Part shown: one piece after another, positions 13,158 to 26,106 of the stretch | Layout of the letters: the number at the start of each line of letters is the position of its first letter | Numbering within the stretch: the stretch's first letter is position 1 | Source: Eubacteriales bacterium | GTDB lineage: Bacteria > Bacillota > Clostridia > Christensenellales > Aristaeellaceae | Direction: 5' to 3' | Assembly (NCBI GenBank): GCA_028701335.1 | Contig: JAQVQY010000009.1 | Span: forward strand, 1 to 39,453 | DNA length: 39,453 nucleotides | Notes under the pieces: generated by a model | Told to the model about the DNA's origin: nothing | Database searches by the model: none | Seen by the model: the letters and a program-made list of their open reading frames with translations, nothing else | Position numbers and translations under genes: made by a program

Positions 13158-14288
13158 TCAGTTCATCGTGAAGGAGACCATGCCGGCCGCGATAAACACC
13201 GTGGTGCCGTTTGGCAGCATGATCTGGTACCAGCCATTGGTTGGGATGCCAACCACCTCATAGACATTGCCCGGATCGGCTTTGCCCACAATGGTTGCTT
13301 TCATGGAAGGTTCCGCCCGCAGGTTTGCCTGGCGGGTGTGGGTCACCAGGACGGTGCCAATGCCGGTGTGGAAGGAACGGTGCAGGCGATATACGCCCAG
13401 GATGGCGTCCGTGCGGGTGAGGGGATGGGTGGGGAAGAAGAGGTGCTCCGCATCGATGCTCATCACAGGATTCCCTGAAGTGGTGTCTGCATGGTCAAGC
13501 ACGGTGATCACCATGTCCAGCATGGGAAGCTGGCGCCAGTCTGAACTGTCATCGGTGGTTACCACCCCCGCGTAGCCCTGAGCCAAACCAATGTCATCTG
13601 CGTCGGCGATATAGGGGTCATGGAAATGGTCCTGCCTGGGGTTCTCATCGCCCATATCGATCAGGGCGCCATACATCTCAGCCGCCGCAACGCCGCGCAG
13701 CACAATGTTGAACTGGGCGCCGGCGCTGGCCGCCTGGTATTCCTCCAGGGTCAGGTAAACATGGCTTCTGATGGCGGCGGGATTTTTGGACTTCAGGCGA
13801 ACGGCGTTGGTGAGCAGGCCGTCCAATTCCTGCCAGGTGACATTGCCCTCAGACAGCATCCCCTGGGGCACAAGGCCCAGGCTGCGGGCTGCCTGGATCT
13901 CCCGGGCAATCAGCTCCGCCGGTGAGGGTGTGGCGGTGGGGGTGGGCTTGGGCGTGGGCTTGGCAGTGGGCTTTGGCGTGGGAGTGATGAAGGGCTTGGG
14001 CTGGCGGTCGGTAAGAAACTCGGTTTTCACATAGCCGTTGTACATCCCATACTGCACATGGTTCCAGACCATGCCCAGGATATCCGGATACACCGTGACC
14101 TCGGCGCCATAAGGGATTTTGGTGAGCACCCGGGCGTTCGGGTCAGGTTCCTCACGCATATTCAGCTGTTTACCGTCAGGGGTTTTCACATACATGGGGT
14201 AGGCGTCCGGGTCATAAATGGACGCGGCGGCGGGCAGCATGGCTGCCAGCAGAAAGAGGGCGGTCAGGAGGCTGAAAATTCTTTTCAT
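13158..14288 (-). CDS. Secreted SH3b-domain protein, copy 2
   Basis: Paralogue of the gene at 5677-6789 with the same plan. A signal peptide (residues 1-22) precedes an N-terminal SH3b (QLNMREEPDPNARVLTKIPYG, YNGYVKTEFL). The PTPKPTAKPTPKP-type linker is slightly longer than in copy 1. A helical middle (SLGLVPQGMLSEGNVTWQEL, FNIVLRGVAAAEMYGALIDMG) and a C-terminal SH3b (QANLRAEPSMKATIVGKADP) ending in VSFTMN follow. The most conserved block between copies is the middle region around RGVAAAEMYGALIDMG; the region between it and the second SH3b varies most. It is a single-gene unit with its own promoter and terminator. Wall binding by SH3b is inferred from the family. No enzymatic domain is visible. 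The function of the middle domain is unknown. Confidence 0.78.
   Translation of the reverse strand: MKRIFSLLTALFLLAAMLPAAASIYDPDAYPMYVKTPDGKQLNMREEPDPNARVLTKIPYGAEVTVYPDILGMVWNHVQYGMYNGYVKTEFLTDRQPKPFITPTPKPTAKPTPKPTPTATPSPAELIAREIQAARSLGLVPQGMLSEGNVTWQELDGLLTNAVRLKSKNPAAIRSHVYLTLEEYQAASAGAQFNIVLRGVAAAEMYGALIDMGDENPRQDHFHDPYIADADDIGLAQGYAGVVTTDDSSDWRQLPMLDMVITVLDHADTTSGNPVMSIDAEHLFFPTHPLTRTDAILGVYRLHRSFHTGIGTVLVTHTRQANLRAEPSMKATIVGKADPGNVYEVVGIPTNGWYQIMLPNGTTVFIAAGMVSFTMN
13938..13958 (+). repeat. G-run repeat with quadruplex potential in the linker-coding region of SH3b copy 2
   Basis: Four G-runs (13938-42, 13944-46, 13950-52, 13956-58) with loops of 1, 3 and 3 bases form a tight canonical quadruplex motif on the plus strand, the template strand of the gene. 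It corresponds to the PTPKP linker and lies at the same place as the 6472-6498 motif in the paralogue. Confidence 0.55.
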
Positions 14289-17039: not shown

Positions 17040-17077
17040 ACAAGAGAGGGTCCGCGCGGCGGACGGCCGGCGGACCC
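17040..17077 (-). terminator. Terminator behind the LysM protein gene
   Basis: GGGTCCGC (17048-17055) and GCGGACCC (17070-17077) pair around a GC-rich 14-base loop that can itself fold. On the minus strand the stem is followed by TCTCTTGTTTTT, a usable but interrupted U-tract. It ends the ten-gene export operon. Confidence 0.75.
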
Positions 17078-17100: not shown

Positions 17101-17328
17101 TTACAGATAAATGCGAAGCCTCCAGCCCGTCTCGATCAAATCGGGGTTGCTGATGATATCGCGGTTCCAGTCGTAAATCCTTTCCCAGGTTACGCCGGAG
17201 TGGCCATGCTTCTGGTAATGCTTTGCGATGCTATGCAGGTTGTCTCCCTTGACCACAGTATAATAGACCATGCTGTTGGTGCCCGCGCCTCCCGATACAT
17301 TGTTCAGATCGTCATCCCTGAGTGTCAT
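17101..17328 (-). CDS. Double-glycine-leader LysM protein, probable cargo of the C39 ABC exporter
   Basis: A 75-residue protein in two parts. Residues 1-14 (MTLRDDDLNNVSGG) are a textbook double-glycine leader: Gly-Gly at -2/-1, hydrophobic residues at -4 (Val), -7 (Leu) and -12 (Leu), and acidic between. Residues 22-75 are a LysM domain (YYTVVKGDNLHSIAKHY, then IYDWNRDIISNPDLIETGWRL) of the kind with a longer central insert. LysM domains bind N-acetylglucosamine polymers such as peptidoglycan. C39-type ABC exporters cut such leaders after the glycine pair, and one is encoded 3.5 kb upstream in the same operon. The predicted mature product is a 61-residue free LysM module with no Sec signal. 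The ribosome site (AAAGGAGG, 8 bases before ATG) is the strongest in the operon. Whether it is a bacteriocin, wall decorator or signal is unknown. Confidence 0.82.
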   Translation of the reverse strand: MTLRDDDLNNVSGGAGTNSMVYYTVVKGDNLHSIAKHYQKHGHSGVTWERIYDWNRDIISNPDLIETGWRLRIYL

Positions 17329-17353
17329 GATGGTATCCTCCTTTATTTTTTCC

Positions 17354-17394: not shown

Positions 17395-17889
17395 TTACTC
17401 CTCGCCCAAGTCAGACAGAAGCAGATCAGACATCTCCAGCAGCGCTTCCTCCGTGGCAACATTGAACATGGCCAGGGCAAAATTATAGCCTTCCTTTTCG
17501 TAGCGCCACAGGGCGATGCCATCCCCGAATTCATGCAGGCAGACGGTACCGCTGAAGGGAGCCATTACAACATGCTTTACAGTATCCCAATCCTGGTACA
17601 TGCCGGATATATCATTGGGGTCATTGTCCAGTTGGGCCCGGAAGATGTACTCTACCTGCTGGAAGACAAAGCGCACCTGGCCCAGAGGTTCCTGATCCGG
17701 GATTTCAATGAGCGAATAATCGACCTCTGTGGCATCCTCAGGCACAAGCAGATTGGCCCCGGTGGCCTCCAGAACCTCTTCCCGGGTAACCTCACGGACC
17801 GGGTTTGGCAGCATCATCCCTTCGGCCAGCCCCAAAACGGGAAGCATCAAAGCCAGAACCAAAAGCAGTGACAGCAGTTTCTTGTTCAT
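17395..17889 (-). CDS. Small secreted protein, single-domain relative of the 4682-5641 protein
   Basis: A signal peptide (residues 1-22, LGLA) is followed by one copy of the domain seen twice in the 4682-5641 product. The shared features in order are MLPNPVREVTREEVLEATG, VDYSLIE, a strand pair (VRFVFQQVEYIFRAQL), DISGMYQDW and the terminal EEALLEMSDLL helix. The start overlaps the sigma-factor stop by four bases (ATGA), so translation is coupled. I recognise no enzyme motif. Sitting between a sigma factor and the exporter cargo, it may be an extracytoplasmic sensor or partner for the system. A domain found next to sigma factors of this type would fit a regulatory role, but that is inference. 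Confidence 0.7.
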   Translation of the reverse strand: MNKKLLSLLLVLALMLPVLGLAEGMMLPNPVREVTREEVLEATGANLLVPEDATEVDYSLIEIPDQEPLGQVRFVFQQVEYIFRAQLDNDPNDISGMYQDWDTVKHVVMAPFSGTVCLHEFGDGIALWRYEKEGYNFALAMFNVATEEALLEMSDLLLSDLGEE

Positions 17890-18398
17890 ACCTGTTCCTC
17901 CATTTTATTGTCCAGTAGTTTGCGCAGTTTTTTGAGCGCCGTTGATTGGATGAAGCCCTCGTTGCTGTAGGAGATGTTCATTTTCTGCGCGATTACTCCG
18001 GGACTTAGGCCCTCATAAAAGCGCAGAATGAGGATGTCCCGTTCCCGTTGGCTAAGGCTATCAAGGGCCTGGGCCAACTCGGCCAGCTGCTCGCGCCCAA
18101 TCACCTTGTCATCCACCGCTTCGTCGCCATCCTGCAGGTTCTCCTGTTCTTCCAGGGGAATGACGGGTTTTGCCCTTCTGTAATAATCCCGCACAGCATT
18201 GCTTGTAATGGCGTATATCCAGGTGGACAGGCTGCCTTTGGCGCTGTTGTAACTGTCAAGGGCCGTTTCCACCTTGAGGAACACATCGCTGGCCAGATCC
18301 TCAGCGTCGTGGTGGTTATTGATTCTGGAGCGGATATAGCGGCTTACCTTGCTCTGATATTCCCCGAAGATGTGGTCCATGGTGACCGGTTCACACAT
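17886..18398 (-). CDS. ECF-like sigma-70 family RNA polymerase sigma factor
   Basis: Region 2 (YQSKVSRYIRSRINNHHDAE, LSTWIYAITSNAVRDYYRR) and region 4 (LDSLSQRERDILILRFYEGL, followed by an HTH ending ALKKLRKLL) are both present in 170 residues, with no region 1 or 3. That is the ECF two-domain plan. The track start at 18443 is unlikely; ATG 18398 has GAGGGGGA six bases upstream and overlaps the preceding stop by 8 bases. No classical membrane anti-sigma (zinc-finger ZAS type) is encoded next to it. Candidates for its control are the 65-residue protein before it, the secreted protein after it, and the STAS/SpoIIE-HATPase pair further upstream. It probably directs transcription of the export operon or its targets; the promoter it reads cannot be identified here. 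Confidence 0.88.
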   Translation of the reverse strand: MCEPVTMDHIFGEYQSKVSRYIRSRINNHHDAEDLASDVFLKVETALDSYNSAKGSLSTWIYAITSNAVRDYYRRAKPVIPLEEQENLQDGDEAVDDKVIGREQLAELAQALDSLSQRERDILILRFYEGLSPGVIAQKMNISYSNEGFIQSTALKKLRKLLDNKMEEQV

Positions 18399-18588
18399 GG
18401 GTGTCCCCCTCTTCTCTGAGGATATCAGGATCGCCCGCGGCATTGAGTTCCAGGTCTTCGTCCGAAAGGGGGATGCCCTTTTTGACCCACCGCGCCAACG
18501 CCCCGTCTATCAGTCTGCCCAGGCGTTCCTCGCCCTCAAAGCGCTGAAAGTCCAAAAGCTTGCGCAGTACCTTGTCACTCATTGTCAT
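18391..18588 (-). CDS. 65-residue protein of unknown function upstream of and overlapping the sigma factor
   Basis: A small, charged, soluble protein with no signal peptide or membrane span. Its helix-rich first half (KVLRKLLDFQRFEGEERLGRL) and a segment ELNAAGDPDILRE are the only notable features. Its stop overlaps the sigma-factor start (ATGTGTGA), so the two are translationally coupled and presumably work together. AAGGAAGG lies 10 bases before the ATG. By position it could be a cytoplasmic regulator or anti-sigma partner, but no motif proves it. I do not know the family name. Confidence 0.65.
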   Translation of the reverse strand: MTMSDKVLRKLLDFQRFEGEERLGRLIDGALARWVKKGIPLSDEDLELNAAGDPDILREEGDTHV

Positions 18589-18615: not shown

Positions 18616-20817
18616 TTACGTGTTGGATTCCATTTTCTTAGAGTCCGGTTCCACCTGCTGCCGGCTTACCAGGTCTGTGAAGATGCCGCCCCGGGCCACC
18701 AGATCCTCATAGGTTCCATCTTCGGCGATCCTGCCCTCATCCAGCACCAGGATGCGGCCGCACTGCCGGATGGTGGACAGGCGATGGGCCACGACTATCC
18801 GGGTACACTTGAGTTTTTCCAGTGATTGGGAAACCTGCCGCTGGGTGATGTTGTCAAGAGCGCTGGTGGCTTCGTCCAGCAGCAGGATGCGCGGCTTTGA
18901 AGCGATGGCCCTTGCTATCATCAGCCGTTGGCGCTGCCCACCCGACACGCCTCCCTCTCCCTCAGACAGCAGGGTGTGCATGCCCATGGGCATTTCACGG
19001 ATATCCTGGGCGATGCCGGCTGTTTCCGCCGCCTCCCAGGCCTCCTGCAGGCTCAGCCCGGGAGCTGAGATGGCGATGTTGGAGAAGACATCCCCCTGAA
19101 ACAGCTTGCTGTCCTGGGTCACCACGCCCAGGTGGCGCCGCAGGCTGCGCAGGTCAAGCGTTGCCATGTCCTGCCCATCATAGTAGACGGCGCCGCGCTG
19201 TGGCTGCTCAAAGCCCAGCAGCAGGCGGAAGATGGTGGACTTTCCGCTGCCCGTACGCCCCACGATGGCCACGTACTCTCCCGGGCGGATTTTCAGGCTC
19301 AAGTCATGAAGCACCGGGGGCATCCGCTCATGGTAGCGGAAGGAGATGTGGTTGAATTCTACCCCGCCCGAGAGGTGCCGGACGCTTTTTTTGTGCCGCG
19401 CTGTTTCAGGCGTGGCCTTCAGCAGCGGGCCAATCATCTGAAGCATCGGGCGAATCTCCGCCGCCTGGAACACCATCCCCGCCAGGGAAGCGAAGGCGCC
19501 GCTGACCATCCCAAAGGAAAGGCTGAAGGCCATGTAGCCCGCCGTGTCCACTCCGTTTCTCACCGCGGCAAAGTAGATGAGCACCGTGCCAAGCAGGGCG
19601 ATGGCCTGGGGAATGACCTGGCCAAAACGGACCAGGAAGGGCGGTTCATACTGAAGCCTGGCGCCTTTTACATAACAGTCGGCCCATTTGGCGAAGGCGC
19701 GCTTCTCAGCCCCAGCCAGCTTGATCTTTTGCACACTGCTGATCAGGGAAAACACCATGCCGCTCTCCTTGGCGCTGATTTCCATGCGCTCCTGTGTATA
19801 GCGTACCTGGGCTAAGGTGGACAGCACGGAAACGGCCAGGGTGGACAAAACGATGGCAAGCGCCGGGACCGCGAGCGACGGCGCGAAGCGCGTTACCTGT
19901 CCCAGGTAGGCAAACGACATCAGGCTTGACAGCCCGCCGGTGAGGGCGATGTTTATTATCAGGCTGCTAAGGCTTCCCACAGATCTTACCCTGCTGGTCA
20001 GCTCACCAGCGTTATAGCCCCTAAAAAAACTGGCCGGAAGCGAGAGCACCCGCATCATGGCGGCGGACTGCACCATCAGGTCAAGCCGCGTCTGTATCTG
20101 GGAGAGCAGTAGCATCCGCGCTGTGGTGATCAGCGCCATGGACACAATCACCCCCACCATGGCGCTTGCCACAGGCGCCAGCAGACTGTACGCGCCGCCA
20201 CTGAGAACGGGCCCAAACAGCAGGAGGTTCATCCGCGGCAGCAGGAGGCCCAATCCCGTTACCAGAAAGGCCACCAGGAAGACCAACGCCAGGTCCGACC
20301 AGGAGAGGGCCCTGGCAATATAGAACAGCAAATCCCGCGCGCCAAGCTTTCTCAAGGGGAAGGGGCGGTAGAAACAGAGCGCGTCCTCAGATACAGTTCC
20401 CGCTGTGCGGGCGTTCAGCTTGACCCGCTTCCCGGTATCCGGGTCCAGATAGGTGTAGCTGCCAAATGCGCCCGGCAAAAGGGCGATAGCCTTTTCTTCC
20501 CTGGTAGTGCCCAGCATAGGTCCAATAGCTTCTTTATACCAGTTACCTGACAGCCGCACCCGGCGGTGCATCAGGCCCAGGGGGGCGGTCAGCCGCGCCA
20601 GTTGCTCCGGAATTTCCTCAGCCGTCTGCGTGTCCTCAGGCGGGGGCAGCCGGTAATAGGAGATAATGTGCATAATAGCGCCCTGGGCTTGCCGGCTGTC
20701 AGCCTGGGGAAAAGGTGGATGCCCAAGCACAGCCCCAGCCATATCGGCAAAAGCCTGGGCAAAGCGCTCGTCATCCTGCTGCGTGCGCTTGCGTATCTGC
20801 TCGTCAAACCAACCCAT
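18616..20817 (-). CDS. NHLP-type peptide ABC exporter, permease/ATPase without peptidase
   Basis: The 733 residues contain an N-terminal soluble region (1 to about 160) that is not a C39 peptidase. A six-span exporter membrane domain follows (about 165-450). The ATPase has Walker A GRTGSGKSTIFRLL, signature VSGGQRQRLMIARAI and Walker B ILLLDEATSALD. The arrangement matches the peptidase-lacking partner in NHLP/NHLM bacteriocin export systems, where two ABC proteins and an HlyD-like adaptor occur together; the family assignment is from recognition, not a search. It starts 11 bases behind the C39 exporter gene and probably forms a heterodimer with it. The ATPase motifs look intact. Confidence 0.85.
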   Translation of the reverse strand: MGWFDEQIRKRTQQDDERFAQAFADMAGAVLGHPPFPQADSRQAQGAIMHIISYYRLPPPEDTQTAEEIPEQLARLTAPLGLMHRRVRLSGNWYKEAIGPMLGTTREEKAIALLPGAFGSYTYLDPDTGKRVKLNARTAGTVSEDALCFYRPFPLRKLGARDLLFYIARALSWSDLALVFLVAFLVTGLGLLLPRMNLLLFGPVLSGGAYSLLAPVASAMVGVIVSMALITTARMLLLSQIQTRLDLMVQSAAMMRVLSLPASFFRGYNAGELTSRVRSVGSLSSLIINIALTGGLSSLMSFAYLGQVTRFAPSLAVPALAIVLSTLAVSVLSTLAQVRYTQERMEISAKESGMVFSLISSVQKIKLAGAEKRAFAKWADCYVKGARLQYEPPFLVRFGQVIPQAIALLGTVLIYFAAVRNGVDTAGYMAFSLSFGMVSGAFASLAGMVFQAAEIRPMLQMIGPLLKATPETARHKKSVRHLSGGVEFNHISFRYHERMPPVLHDLSLKIRPGEYVAIVGRTGSGKSTIFRLLLGFEQPQRGAVYYDGQDMATLDLRSLRRHLGVVTQDSKLFQGDVFSNIAISAPGLSLQEAWEAAETAGIAQDIREMPMGMHTLLSEGEGGVSGGQRQRLMIARAIASKPRILLLDEATSALDNITQRQVSQSLEKLKCTRIVVAHRLSTIRQCGRILVLDEGRIAEDGTYEDLVARGGIFTDLVSRQQVEPDSKKMESNT

Positions 20818-20828
20818 TGCGCTTCCCC

Positions 20829-23009
20829 TTACTCATTGGACACCAGCCGGCGGTAGAGCCCGTCCCGGGCATAAAGTGTGTCGTGGGTGCCCCGCTCAAC
20901 GACTTTGCCGTGGTCCAGCACTACGATCTCATCACAGTCCCGGATGGTGGACAGGCGATGTGCCACCACCACCGAGGTGACGCCCCGCTGCCTGATGCCA
21001 CGCATCACCTCATACTCCGTGCGGGCGTCAAGGGCGCTGGTCGCCTCGTCCAGGACGATAATGGATGGGTCCTGGGCCAGGACACGGGCAATTTCAAGCC
21101 GTTGGCGCTGCCCGCCGGAGAGGTCCCGGCCGCCTGAGAGGATTCGGCCCTGATAACCATCCTCCCGGCGCAGGATATCATCGTGAATCTGGGCGTCCCG
21201 GGCCGCCAGGATCACCTCAAAATCCTCAATGGAAGTGTCCCACATCCTGATGTTGTCAGCGATGCTGTCCTCGAATAAAATGATGTCCTGGTCCACCACC
21301 GCCAGGGAAGCGGTGAAAATCTCCCTCGTGATATCTTCCATCAGCCGGCCGTCAAATAAAATCTCGCCCCGCCAGGGTTTATAAAGGCCTGAGATCAGCT
21401 TGGCCAGCGTGGATTTGCCGCAGCCGGAAGGCCCCACCAGCGCCACACTGGCTCCCGGTTTGAGGCTTAGGTCAAAGCCCGCAATCAGCGGTTCTCCCAG
21501 GGGGGCATAGCCAAAGGTCACTCCCCGCATTTCCATTCCGCCATGCAGCTTATCACAGTCACCCTCGAGCAGGGGGGAAGTTCGCTCAGGCACATCCGGG
21601 GGATAAGACAGCACATCCTCAATGCGCTCCATATCCCCGCGCATCTCCTGAACACCCTGTCCGGCTGAGATCAGATTGCCGGCAGGCGTGGCGAAAGCGC
21701 CCATGAAACCCTGGAAGGCCAGGATCATCCCGGCGGTAAACTGGCCCTGCAGCGCCAGCCAAACACCCAAAACCAACACTGCCGCGTCCGCCAGGGAGGA
21801 AATCAGCCCCGGAATGCTGCCCAGGCAGTGGTTCAGCCGGGTAAAGCGCACCACCTGGGTGTTGACTGACGCCTGGTAACCCGCCCACTTCTCAAAGTAC
21901 CCGTCCTCAGCACCGCAGGCCTTGATGGTTTCAATCAACTGGATGCCTGTCACCGTGGCCCCGGCCAGCCTGCCGGCGTCCCGCATCTGCACCCGGGTGA
22001 TGTTGACCCGTTTTTTTGATATAATCCTTGCCAGAATCATCTTGAGCGCCATAGCCCCGATGCCAACGGCAGTAAGCAGGACGCTGTAGCGCAGCATCAC
22101 CACCAGATAGAACACCAGCATGGCAAAATCCAGGAACAACGGGGCCAATTGCCGGACCAAGGCGTTGGCAACCCCGGCGTTGGCGCTCTGGCGGGAGGCG
22201 ATATCTCCCACCATGCGCTGGGAGAAAAAGGCGAGGGGCAGGCGCAGCACATGCCACATGAACTCCGCGTTGGCTACCACCGCGAACTTGCCCTCAATGC
22301 GCAGCGAATGGACTTCCTGAAGGAAACCTATAAGGATTTGCGCCAGGGCCAGAACAGCAAGCGCCAGGGTGAAAGGCCCGAGCCACTCCGGGTTTCGCCC
22401 CGTCAAAAGCCGGTCCATAAAAACGCGGGAGAAGGCCGGGTTGATGATGCCAATCATGGCGGTAGCCAGGCTGGTCAGGACCACAAACGCCACGGCTGCC
22501 TGGGCGCCGCGTAGGCGCGAGCGGACAAAGGCCAGCATGCTCTTTGGCTTTCCGCCTGGCTCAAAGGCATCGGTTGGAGCAAACATCAGACATACACCAG
22601 TAAAACCCCGGTCAAACTCTTCTTTGGAGAGAATAACAGTGCCCCGGGCCGGGTCGTTGATAACGGCGCGCTCCCCCTTAAAGCCGCACAGCACCACAAA
22701 GTGGTTAAAATTCCAGTGAATGATACAGGGGAAACTCCCCTCCCGTTTCAGCTGCTCCGGCTCATAGCGAAAACCCTGGGCCATTAGCCCGTAGCTGCGG
22801 GCGGCAATGAGCATATTACGGGCGTTGGAGCCGTCCCGGGACACGCCGCAATCAGCGCGCACCTTTTCAAGCGGCAGCCATTTGGCGTACCACGCCAGCA
22901 CCATCGCCAGGCATGCAGCGCCGCATTCCAGCGCTTCCAGCTGCATCACCATGGGTACTTTGGCCCATCCCGTCCTTAGGGGTTGCCTGGATGATTTATT
23001 GCGCACCAT
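20829..23009 (-). CDS. C39-peptidase-containing ABC exporter (leader-cleaving, NHLP/bacteriocin type)
   Basis: Residues 1 to about 145 are a C39 cysteine peptidase: Cys29 in QLEALECGAACLAMVL, His103 in NFNHFVVLCGF and Asp119 in VINDPARG form the expected Cys-His-Asp set. A six-span transmembrane domain (about 165-450) and an ATPase (Walker A LVGPSGCGKSTLAKLI, signature LSGGQRQRLEIARVL, Walker B IIVLDEATSALD) follow. Proteins of this class cleave double-glycine leaders while exporting the peptide. The track start is 23036, but ATG 23009 follows GGAAGGGAG and overlaps the adaptor stop by 14 bases, so I use it (726 residues). The only double-glycine-leader protein I can find in the window is the LysM protein at 17101-17328. 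Confidence 0.93.
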   Translation of the reverse strand: MVRNKSSRQPLRTGWAKVPMVMQLEALECGAACLAMVLAWYAKWLPLEKVRADCGVSRDGSNARNMLIAARSYGLMAQGFRYEPEQLKREGSFPCIIHWNFNHFVVLCGFKGERAVINDPARGTVILSKEEFDRGFTGVCLMFAPTDAFEPGGKPKSMLAFVRSRLRGAQAAVAFVVLTSLATAMIGIINPAFSRVFMDRLLTGRNPEWLGPFTLALAVLALAQILIGFLQEVHSLRIEGKFAVVANAEFMWHVLRLPLAFFSQRMVGDIASRQSANAGVANALVRQLAPLFLDFAMLVFYLVVMLRYSVLLTAVGIGAMALKMILARIISKKRVNITRVQMRDAGRLAGATVTGIQLIETIKACGAEDGYFEKWAGYQASVNTQVVRFTRLNHCLGSIPGLISSLADAAVLVLGVWLALQGQFTAGMILAFQGFMGAFATPAGNLISAGQGVQEMRGDMERIEDVLSYPPDVPERTSPLLEGDCDKLHGGMEMRGVTFGYAPLGEPLIAGFDLSLKPGASVALVGPSGCGKSTLAKLISGLYKPWRGEILFDGRLMEDITREIFTASLAVVDQDIILFEDSIADNIRMWDTSIEDFEVILAARDAQIHDDILRREDGYQGRILSGGRDLSGGQRQRLEIARVLAQDPSIIVLDEATSALDARTEYEVMRGIRQRGVTSVVVAHRLSTIRDCDEIVVLDHGKVVERGTHDTLYARDGLYRRLVSNE

Positions 23010-23493
23010 GCCCGCTCCCTTCCAGCAGGAATTCAATGGGGCGGATGGTTTCCGTGGTTATAATCACATCCCAGACTCCGTCAGGCAGCCCTGGAGCGCT
23101 TACATGCACCGGGTAATTCCAGGTCTGGGGGTTCAGCTGATATGCCAGGAAGTCCTCCGGGTGGATTTCGTTGAACTCCTCTTCAGACAGCGGCACGGGT
23201 GACACGGACACCACCGTGCCCTGGAGCTCACCGATGGCGGCGGGCATGCCGGGGGAAACGCGCTCGATTTGTGCCACATAGCATACGACCTCTCCGTTTT
23301 GGGCGATTCCCTTGGCGGAGACGGTGCTGGGAAGGGTTCCATAGAAGCCAAACCCCACAAAAGCCACGAGAAGGATGATGATGGCCGCCAGCGCCAGCCA
23401 TACACTGGGCCGCGCCACGCGCAGATAGTCGCTGAGCGCTTCGGGGGACGTGATCCTGTCCACTTGGCTTTGACGAAACAGCTTGTTATCCAT
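22996..23493 (-). CDS. Short HlyD-like secretion adaptor of the NHLP type
   Basis: The N-terminus (LFRQSQVDRITSPEALSDYL) and the single membrane span (about 32-52) match the adaptor protein of NHLP export systems, which bridges the exporter to the outside. At 165 residues it is short: after the span there is one beta-rich stretch (QGTVVSVSPVPLSEEEF, YPVHVSAPG) but no long coiled-coil hairpin as in classic HlyD. That is reasonable for a Gram-positive envelope with no outer membrane to cross. It overlaps the SpoIIE gene by 8 bases upstream and the C39 exporter by 14 bases downstream. Confidence 0.8.
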   Translation of the reverse strand: MDNKLFRQSQVDRITSPEALSDYLRVARPSVWLALAAIIILLVAFVGFGFYGTLPSTVSAKGIAQNGEVVCYVAQIERVSPGMPAAIGELQGTVVSVSPVPLSEEEFNEIHPEDFLAYQLNPQTWNYPVHVSAPGLPDGVWDVIITTETIRPIEFLLEGSGHGAQ

Positions 23494-25801
23494 GGCCGGG
23501 CTCCTTTGTGCCGCGGGATTTTGCCTTTTTTTCCGGCACGCGTGCCAGATTTATATGGATAAGCAGCCGATTTTCCCCGTCCTCGTAAGTGTAGGCAGCA
23601 TAATCGGCCAGTTTTCGGATCATCATAAGGCCCAGCCCCCCGGCTTCCCGCTGGTCGCTGGAGAGGCTGATGTCCGGCATCGGCTGGGAGAGGGGGTCAA
23701 ACGGCTCACCCCGGTCCCTGAAGCGCATTACGGCTTCCCGGCCCACCAGCTCACAACTGAATGTCACCTTGTCCCCAGGGGAGCTGGTATAGCGAACCAT
23801 GTTGGAGAAAATCTCGTCCACCACCACATAAAGCCGGTTGAGCGCGTGGGGGGACGGGTTAAGGGGCGCTGTTTCGGCTTCAGCCAACGACTGGATGGTT
23901 TTCAGCTGTTCCTCCTCAAGGGGGATGTCCACCCATGGGAGTGCCGCGGGGCTTTTCAGGATGTCCAGCGCCATCAGCGTAATGTCATCAGCCTGCTCCC
24001 GGCCGCCGGCAAACTGTCTTAGGGCCTGCATCACCTTTTCGGGTTGCTTATGCGCCGGCATGTCACGCAGGGGAGTGTGGTCAATCAAGGTTTTAAAGCC
24101 CCCGGAGGTAAGGAAAGCACCCTGGGCATTCTCCGCCTCAATAACCCCATCGGTGTAAAGCAGCAGTTTGTCACCCGCTACCAGGCGGACGCGGCACATG
24201 TGGTATTGGCTGTCTTCCATGGCCCCCAGCACCAGGCCGGCCGAGCAACGCAAAAAGGCGTACTCTTCGCCCGTCCTGGCCAGAAGGGGTGGGTTGTGCC
24301 CGGCGTTCACATAATCAAGCCAGCCATCCCCTTCAAAATCCCACAGCCCCACAAACGCGGTGACAAAGAGGCCGGCCTCATTCTCCTCACAGAGCTTCCG
24401 GTTGGCGTGGGCAACCGCTTTGGCCAGATCTCTTTCCGCCAGAATGTCGCTTTGTAGCTGCGTCTTGACGCGCATCATAAATAAAGCGCCCGGGATACCC
24501 TTGCCGGAGACATCAGCGATAACAAGCGCCAACTTTCTGCCGGAAGGCCCGGGGACGAAGAAGAAATCATAAAAATCCCCGCCCACTTCCCGCGCGGCCT
24601 CCAAAAGCGCTCCAAGGCGGAACTGGCCTTCCAGCCCCTTAAGCGCGGATGTCCGGGGGAGGTTTGCATGCTGCACCTCCCGGGCCAGTGCAAGTTCCGC
24701 ATCAACACGCGACCGGGCATCGGCAATGGCCTGTTTGAGCGCGTCAACCGTTGCGTTAATGCCGTCTGACAGGGCGCGAAACTCGGCGTTGCCGTGCTCT
24801 TGCACCCGGGTTTCCAGGTTCCCCTCTGTGATGAGGGCCAGGGAGGCGTTCACATTCCTGATACCCCGGATGACCTCCACGTCTACCATTCGGCTGACCA
24901 GGATGAACACGCCAAGGAAAAGAAGGAGGTAGGCCAGGCCCATGAACATCATGGTAATGTTTCGGCCCGCATGGATTTCGGAATAGGGGAGCATTCCGAT
25001 GATCAGGTAATCTCCCCACTCTTTTCCCAGGCCCAGCGCGCGGGAAGCTCCCAACCCGGTTGTGAAAGGCTCGCCCGAACGGGCTTCAGCCAACTCAAAA
25101 TCCAGGTCCTCCGCCCTCAGGTCCATCAGTTCACGCTTACCGGAGCTTACCACCAGCCCACGTTCAAAGACCACCACGGTGCCGTGGCTGCCAATGGCAA
25201 ATCCCGGCGCCAGGCTTTTGATATCAGCTACCTGGACGGCTTCTGCCAGGCGCTCCGGCACGTCCCCGATCTGCACCATGCCCGCCCGGCCGGGAATGCC
25301 GGCGGCTGAGAACTGCATCATCATACTCGCGTCATGCCCCGTGGGGGCCGCGGGTTGTATCAAAATAAGGTTCGGGTCTTTTAGGATGGGCAGGAAGAAG
25401 GAGGACTGCTCAGCGCTGGCAAGGTCATAGCCAAGGTAGGGCGCGTAGGTGGTGGCGGTGATGATGCCGCTGCTATCAATCACATGCAGTTGGTCTACGT
25501 CAAGCACAGGCAAAAGGGCAGCGAGCTCATCACCGCTCTGTGCCATCTCCGGGTGCCGGGACAGAATCCAGCGGAGGGTATGAAGTTTGGTTGTCAGGGA
25601 TTCGTCATTGCTCTGGCGAATTTTTTCCAGGTCTCTGTCGTGCCGGGTAATTTGTACCCGCGCGTCAGCAAGCCTTGATTTAATCAGCTCCAGCGCGTCC
25701 TCCCGGGCATGGCGGGTCTGTACCAGCCAGGTGATAAGCAGGGTAACCCCGAAGGCCGCAACCATGAGGATCAAAAGGCGCCGCTGAAAGGTTCGCCTCA
25801 T
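23486..25801 (-). CDS. Membrane sensor with SpoIIE-type phosphatase and HATPase (RsbW-like) kinase domains
   Basis: The 771 residues carry an N-terminal span (about 9-27) and an extracytoplasmic sensor region of Cache-like size (28 to about 275). A second span (about 280-303), HAMP and helical linker (about 304-385), and a PP2C/SpoIIE phosphatase (GGDFYDFF, VIADVSGKGIPGALF, ADDITLMAL; about 395-600) follow. A C-terminal HATPase_c domain has its N-box (VVDEIFSNMVRY) and G-box (GGLGLMMIRKLAD). SpoIIE/RsbU phosphatases dephosphorylate STAS antagonists, and RsbW-like domains phosphorylate them; here both activities sit in one sensor chain next to their likely substrate, the STAS protein, whose stop it overlaps by 4 bases (ATGA). 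The signal sensed outside is unknown. Confidence 0.92.
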   Translation of the reverse strand: MRRTFQRRLLILMVAAFGVTLLITWLVQTRHAREDALELIKSRLADARVQITRHDRDLEKIRQSNDESLTTKLHTLRWILSRHPEMAQSGDELAALLPVLDVDQLHVIDSSGIITATTYAPYLGYDLASAEQSSFFLPILKDPNLILIQPAAPTGHDASMMMQFSAAGIPGRAGMVQIGDVPERLAEAVQVADIKSLAPGFAIGSHGTVVVFERGLVVSSGKRELMDLRAEDLDFELAEARSGEPFTTGLGASRALGLGKEWGDYLIIGMLPYSEIHAGRNITMMFMGLAYLLLFLGVFILVSRMVDVEVIRGIRNVNASLALITEGNLETRVQEHGNAEFRALSDGINATVDALKQAIADARSRVDAELALAREVQHANLPRTSALKGLEGQFRLGALLEAAREVGGDFYDFFFVPGPSGRKLALVIADVSGKGIPGALFMMRVKTQLQSDILAERDLAKAVAHANRKLCEENEAGLFVTAFVGLWDFEGDGWLDYVNAGHNPPLLARTGEEYAFLRCSAGLVLGAMEDSQYHMCRVRLVAGDKLLLYTDGVIEAENAQGAFLTSGGFKTLIDHTPLRDMPAHKQPEKVMQALRQFAGGREQADDITLMALDILKSPAALPWVDIPLEEEQLKTIQSLAEAETAPLNPSPHALNRLYVVVDEIFSNMVRYTSSPGDKVTFSCELVGREAVMRFRDRGEPFDPLSQPMPDISLSSDQREAGGLGLMMIRKLADYAAYTYEDGENRLLIHINLARVPEKKAKSRGTKEPGHG

Positions 25802-26106
25802 GGGGTCTCGTCAAGAATGGTGAGGACATCCGTAAAGCCTGTGATCTCAAACACTTCCATGACGGCCGGGTTGGGATTTAAAATCGTGAGGCTCCCCTGC
25901 CGGTTCATCACCTTCTGCGCGGCCAGGATGACCCGAAGCCCGGCGCTGGATACATACTCCACACCCCGCATCTCAAACTCCAGTTGTGTGACGCCCTCAA
26001 CCCCCGCGCGGAGAGCCGCTTCAAGCTCCCGGGAAGTCATGCTGTCAAGCCGTCCTGTGAGCTTCAGGCGCAGGCGGCCGCCATCCCTGGTTTCTTCAAT
26101 GGTCAT
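25798..26106 (-). CDS. STAS-domain anti-sigma-factor antagonist
   Basis: A 102-residue single STAS domain (LKLTGRLDSMTSRELEAAL, FEMRGVEYVSSAGLRVILAA) with the conserved serine pair that is phosphorylated in SpoIIAA/RsbV proteins. In the family the unphosphorylated form binds and removes an anti-sigma kinase. Its natural partner here is the SpoIIE-HATPase sensor encoded immediately downstream with an ATGA overlap. A good ribosome site (GGGAAGGTGAAGG) precedes the ATG. How this switch connects to the ECF-like sigma factor downstream is open, since partner switches classically control sigma-B/F types. Confidence 0.93.
   Translation of the reverse strand: MTIEETRDGGRLRLKLTGRLDSMTSRELEAALRAGVEGVTQLEFEMRGVEYVSSAGLRVILAAQKVMNRQGSLTILNPNPAVMEVFEITGFTDVLTILDETP

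Follow-up and report, generated by a model that had tools for sequence, protein, structure and literature searches.

A double-glycine leader on a LysM domain protein at the end of an operon with a C39 peptidase exporter

Described C39 export systems and the operon in the window

Catalogues list exporters of the C39/NHLM type as bacteriocin systems, and the rules used in genome mining seek short, toxin-like cores. LahT is part of a RiPP (lanthipeptide-type) system. In the leader-bound structure of LahT150 the groove holds the leader residues V-4, L-7 and L-12 (PMC6363468), and the NHLM/NHLP export cassette is described by the families TIGR03794, TIGR03796 and TIGR03797 (Haft et al. 2010, PMC2887384). 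Double-glycine (GG) proteins with another purpose are also on record: in Synechococcus elongatus the four EbfG proteins (EbfG1-4), with mature parts of about 6-7 kDa, are secreted via the C39 transporter PteB and needed for biofilm (PMC4997328), so that the view of the first-pass annotation that GG leaders usually precede toxins has to be softened. The exporter class considered here is already known; a search of open-access papers returned nothing specific on a cargo family of LysM proteins with a GG leader (GG-LysM).

The GG-LysM gene is the last of a conserved operon with all genes on the minus strand of the window, i.e. the whole stretch of 39,453 nucleotides that was analysed. The operon opens with a STAS anti-sigma-factor antagonist (25798..26106, TIGR00377 over cut-off) and a SpoIIE-type phosphatase with matches to HAMP and RsbW-like HATPase domains (23486..25801), both regulators, followed by a short HlyD-like protein of 165 residues (22996..23493). 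Next come an exporter with C39 peptidase (PF03412), permease and ATPase parts (20829..23009; NHLM_micro_ABC1, TIGR03796, 914 bits against a cut-off of 853), whose reading frame may start instead at a TTG at 23036, and a second, NHLM_micro_ABC2-like ABC transporter without peptidase (18616..20817; TIGR03797, 701 bits against a cut-off of 709). Three genes lead from there to GG-LysM: p65, a small protein whose gene accompanies that of the sigma factor and which was recognised by its conservation in the operons (18391..18588), an ECF-type sigma factor (17886..18443, TIGR02937 over cut-off), and p164, whose N-terminus is Sec-like by hydropathy and which is conserved in the related operons (17395..17889). 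The whole operon was kept in the same gene order at two related loci, L027 and L028, the former with GG-LysM duplicated as two tandem genes. In L027 (1156-3458, DTU024) the SpoIIE gene is read as two ORFs, from a frameshift or an assembly error.

With the NHLM cassette the locus shares a C39-ABC exporter over its cut-off, a second ABC transporter just below, an HlyD-like protein and the adjacency of these genes. It departs from the cassette in the HlyD component, which is short and matches only the first 58 of the 421 positions of TIGR03794 (46 bits against a cut-off of 156); short versions recur at the same position beside exporters of this order. Moreover, no modification enzyme was found among the operon genes examined, the window protein had no match to the NHLP/Nif11 precursor families TIGR03793, TIGR03795 and TIGR03798, and the cargo is a LysM domain, which also sets it apart from the LahT system.

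The C39 domain of the exporter, named as the partner of the leader by the first-pass annotation, proved a suitable candidate: it is 74% identical to LahT150 (6MPZ) over 133 residues and retains the catalytic Q21, C27, H101 and D117 (LahT numbering), and the window leader has the same V-4, L-7 and L-12 residues as the one bound to LahT150.

The leader and the LysM domain

The GG-LysM precursor ORF (17101-17328, minus strand) encodes the leader MTLRDDDLNNVSGG and a 61-residue LysM domain. A ribosome-binding site, AAAGGAGG, was read 8 nt before its ATG (17337..17344, minus strand), and a terminator-like hairpin with a T-rich tail lies 3' of its stop codon (17048..17077, minus strand; fold z=-3.5); a pattern scan picked up part of this hairpin, the scan's count being not above chance. 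A different contig of the same genome holds a solitary second GG-LysM gene (71% identical).

The leader occupies 17287..17328 (minus strand; codons 17328 to 17287), with L at -12, L at -7, V at -4 and GG at -2/-1, and predicted C39 cleavage after G14. The predicted mature product (17101..17286, minus strand, including the stop codon) is a single LysM domain of 61 residues and basic, with a pI of 8.3. These residues matched the LysM family PF01476 with E=1e-10 and 41.8 bits, against a cut-off of 20.9. The AlphaFold2 model has a confident beta-alpha-alpha-beta domain, with mean pLDDT above 90 in blocks from residue 21 on, preceded by a flexible leader in which residues 5-9 form a short helix. 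Top PDB matches of this model in Foldseek were LysM structures, with probability 1.00 for the top ones and E-values of 0.03 and weaker, the domain being very small. The window protein is thus a LysM domain protein by the PF01476 cut-off and by predicted fold, and binding of peptidoglycan or other GlcNAc polymers is predicted for it. Its top PDB sequence match was the fungal Ecp6 (4b8v), which appeared with a Zymoseptoria LysM protein (6q40) among both sequence and fold matches; these fungal effectors are likewise secreted and built of LysM domains, but they are eukaryotic, have chitin ligands and leave the cell by another route, and serve as an analogy only.

No hydrophobic N-terminal stretch or signal peptide was seen in GG-LysM, whose hydropathy peaks at 0.63 over 12 residues, compared with 3.12 in the neighbouring p164. 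Hence the sequence reading bears out the spacing given by the first-pass annotation, with the glycine pair at -2/-1 and hydrophobic residues at -4, -7 and -12, and the hydropathy agrees with its remark that the mature LysM product has no Sec or other export signal. Its description of the leader as "perfect" has no weight by itself: a shuffled window is expected to give about 1.4 matches to the strict motif among its short ATG ORFs, and a second match was present on the opposite strand of the actual window. The significance of the motif on its own was accordingly rejected, and the support for the leader comes from conservation.

The alignments, of 18 homologues at first and 28 later, drew on two families of the order and several genera. 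All 28 have the GG pair, L or M at -7 and a hydrophobic residue at -12, while 26 have a hydrophobic residue at -4 and 26 an E or D at -8; the mature part is basic (pI above 8) in 27. A GG leader was present at 11 of 12 additional loci and missing at one that encodes a two-LysM protein. One of these 11, in a multicopy array (L183, G063:C44), has lost the LysM frame midway and is a probable pseudogene. As the profile contained the leader, its counts somewhat favour leader-bearing matches; the short-frame matches of a single-sequence search likewise carried the leader. Against the orthologues L027 copy A and L028 the leader had a pN of 0.00 and a pS of 0.32-0.53, and the second L027 copy had two changes in the leader.

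A protein is taken as a C39 double-glycine substrate when it has GG (or GA/GS) at -2/-1 and hydrophobic residues at -4, -7 and -12. GG-LysM has the pair and the spacing, together with an intact exporter in its genome, which makes it a candidate substrate. The first-pass annotation had made its reading depend on homologues keeping the N-terminal leader and the glycine pair, and they do so in other genera and in another family; a double-glycine leader on a 61-residue LysM protein is confirmed, and the reading of this leader as one for a C39 peptidase is supported, with cleavage and export predicted. A purely fortuitous leader on a LysM protein that stays inside the cell, for example a Kbp-like one, is very improbable: the frequency of the motif in shuffled windows and the similarity to the Kbp LysM domain speak for it, but the recognition positions are conserved across genera, the leader occurs also on a second fold (SH3b), and it co-occurs strongly with the C39 exporter, as described below.

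Distribution of the leader, the exporter and a second wall-binding fold

The exporter was detected over its cut-off in 34 of 150 related genomes. It was present in 10 of the 11 genomes with GG-LysM and in 24 of the 139 others (Fisher p=1e-6, a value that is indicative only, since the genomes are related and it overstates their independence). Within the genus, GG-LysM and the exporter were found in the same three of 11 genomes and were both absent from the other eight. One genome (G014, 75% complete) had GG-LysM and no exporter over the cut-off. GG-LysM copy number is high and variable, with nine matches in G063, and copies stand alone or in arrays; as many of them are unlinked to the exporter, their pairing with it would follow from co-occurrence.

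In a sample of 399 genomes of the phylum, none of the matches listed outside the genome of the window covers the leader; on this basis the family seems confined to the order. Of the 39 plasmid records matched, 34 were from Clostridioides difficile, and the rows listed for them aligned from residue 11 only.

GG leaders also occur on short SH3b proteins, encoded directly before the HlyD and C39 genes in G020 (L114) and elsewhere in G016, G026 and G069, all of them exporter-bearing. Of the 14 genomes with GG-leader LysM or SH3b proteins, 13 have the exporter. In G078 (L220 and L221), similar proteins of a single SH3b domain have a Sec-like signal in place of the GG leader, an apparent swap of the export signal as read from sequence. 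The presence of the leader on two unrelated wall-binding folds is the best hint that this cargo serves to bind the wall. Other exporter loci of the order encode Cys-rich, glycine-rich GG peptides and zinc-ribbon-like GG proteins (L112 1315-1979, L144, L139 and L125), and the exporters are therefore not specialised for wall binders alone.

Predicted export route and role

We infer cleavage, export, wall binding and regulation from sequence, conservation, operon context, co-occurrence and predicted fold. The gene probably encodes a peptidoglycan-binding LysM protein of 61 residues that is cleaved and exported, one of a family of wall binders (LysM, SH3b) with GG leaders that is lineage-specific and often multicopy. 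The 14-residue leader would dock as a helix on the C39 domain of the exporter from the same operon, which would cut the bond after GG14; the ABC exporter would then pass out the mature, basic 61-residue LysM protein, to fold outside the cell and bind peptidoglycan. The partner-switch/sigma module in the operon probably controls expression of the family.

Coating or modifying of the wall of the producer or its kin, rather than killing, is the role we favour, while the sequence as such fits both; the preference comes from the copies standing alone or in arrays, from the Sec-type SH3b counterpart and from the flanks of the stand-alone GG-LysM genes looked at, where no immunity-like gene was noticed, though one of a novel type could escape. 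The same flanks weigh against a bacteriocin, i.e. a secreted basic wall binder that injures neighbouring cells by obstructing or disturbing peptidoglycan, as do the lack of a recognisable catalytic or pore-forming part and of a match to any bacteriocin family at its cut-off. That reading draws on the NHLM bacteriocin class of the exporter, the small, basic mature parts, the high and variable copy number (nine matches in G063) and the operon of G001, from the same genus, which has Cys-rich, bacteriocin-like GG peptides at the position of GG-LysM; all in all we regard it as rather unlikely.

A function in biofilm or as a cell-cell signal, after the manner of EbfG, is an unlikely reading as well. 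EbfG1-4 are likewise small GG-leader proteins that need a C39 transporter, and the phosphatase, STAS and sigma regulators in the operon would be in keeping with such a function. The EbfG proteins differ in that they come from a cyanobacterial host, have a demonstrated biofilm role and lack any recognised domain in the mature part, where a wall binder is predicted here; moreover, no receptor gene was identified.

That related Clostridia with the matching exporter encode a family of GG-tagged wall binders suggests a little-noticed delivery of such proteins to the cell surface. Tentatively, and with rather less than even confidence, the NHLM-type C39 exporters of the order could be a Sec-independent surface-coating route for LysM and SH3b proteins under a SpoIIE/STAS/sigma switch, and not toxin exporters. 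If so, some "bacteriocin" loci with GG leaders on wall-binding folds would serve surface biology, and GG-LysM is a directly testable candidate C39 substrate for which an activity, the binding of peptidoglycan, can be predicted.

STAS, SpoIIE phosphatase and RsbW-like HATPase genes also adjoin NHLM C39 exporters at other loci (L125, L127, L129, L133 and L140), a recurrence suggesting partner-switch control of export. Relatives of p65 (L034, L035, L105, L110, L112, L113 and L119) occur mostly with an ECF sigma factor or adjoining a GG-LysM gene. In several homologues the C-terminus of p65 resembles an uncleavable C39 leader, with AA replacing GG; the V/L/M spacing was clear in four of the six checked, though not in the window copy. 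A regulatory role for p65, by docking to the exporter, is possible. Near the operon, at 13158-14288 on the minus strand, lies a gene for a secreted-looking protein of 376 residues with bacterial SH3 domains, which is kept in L027.
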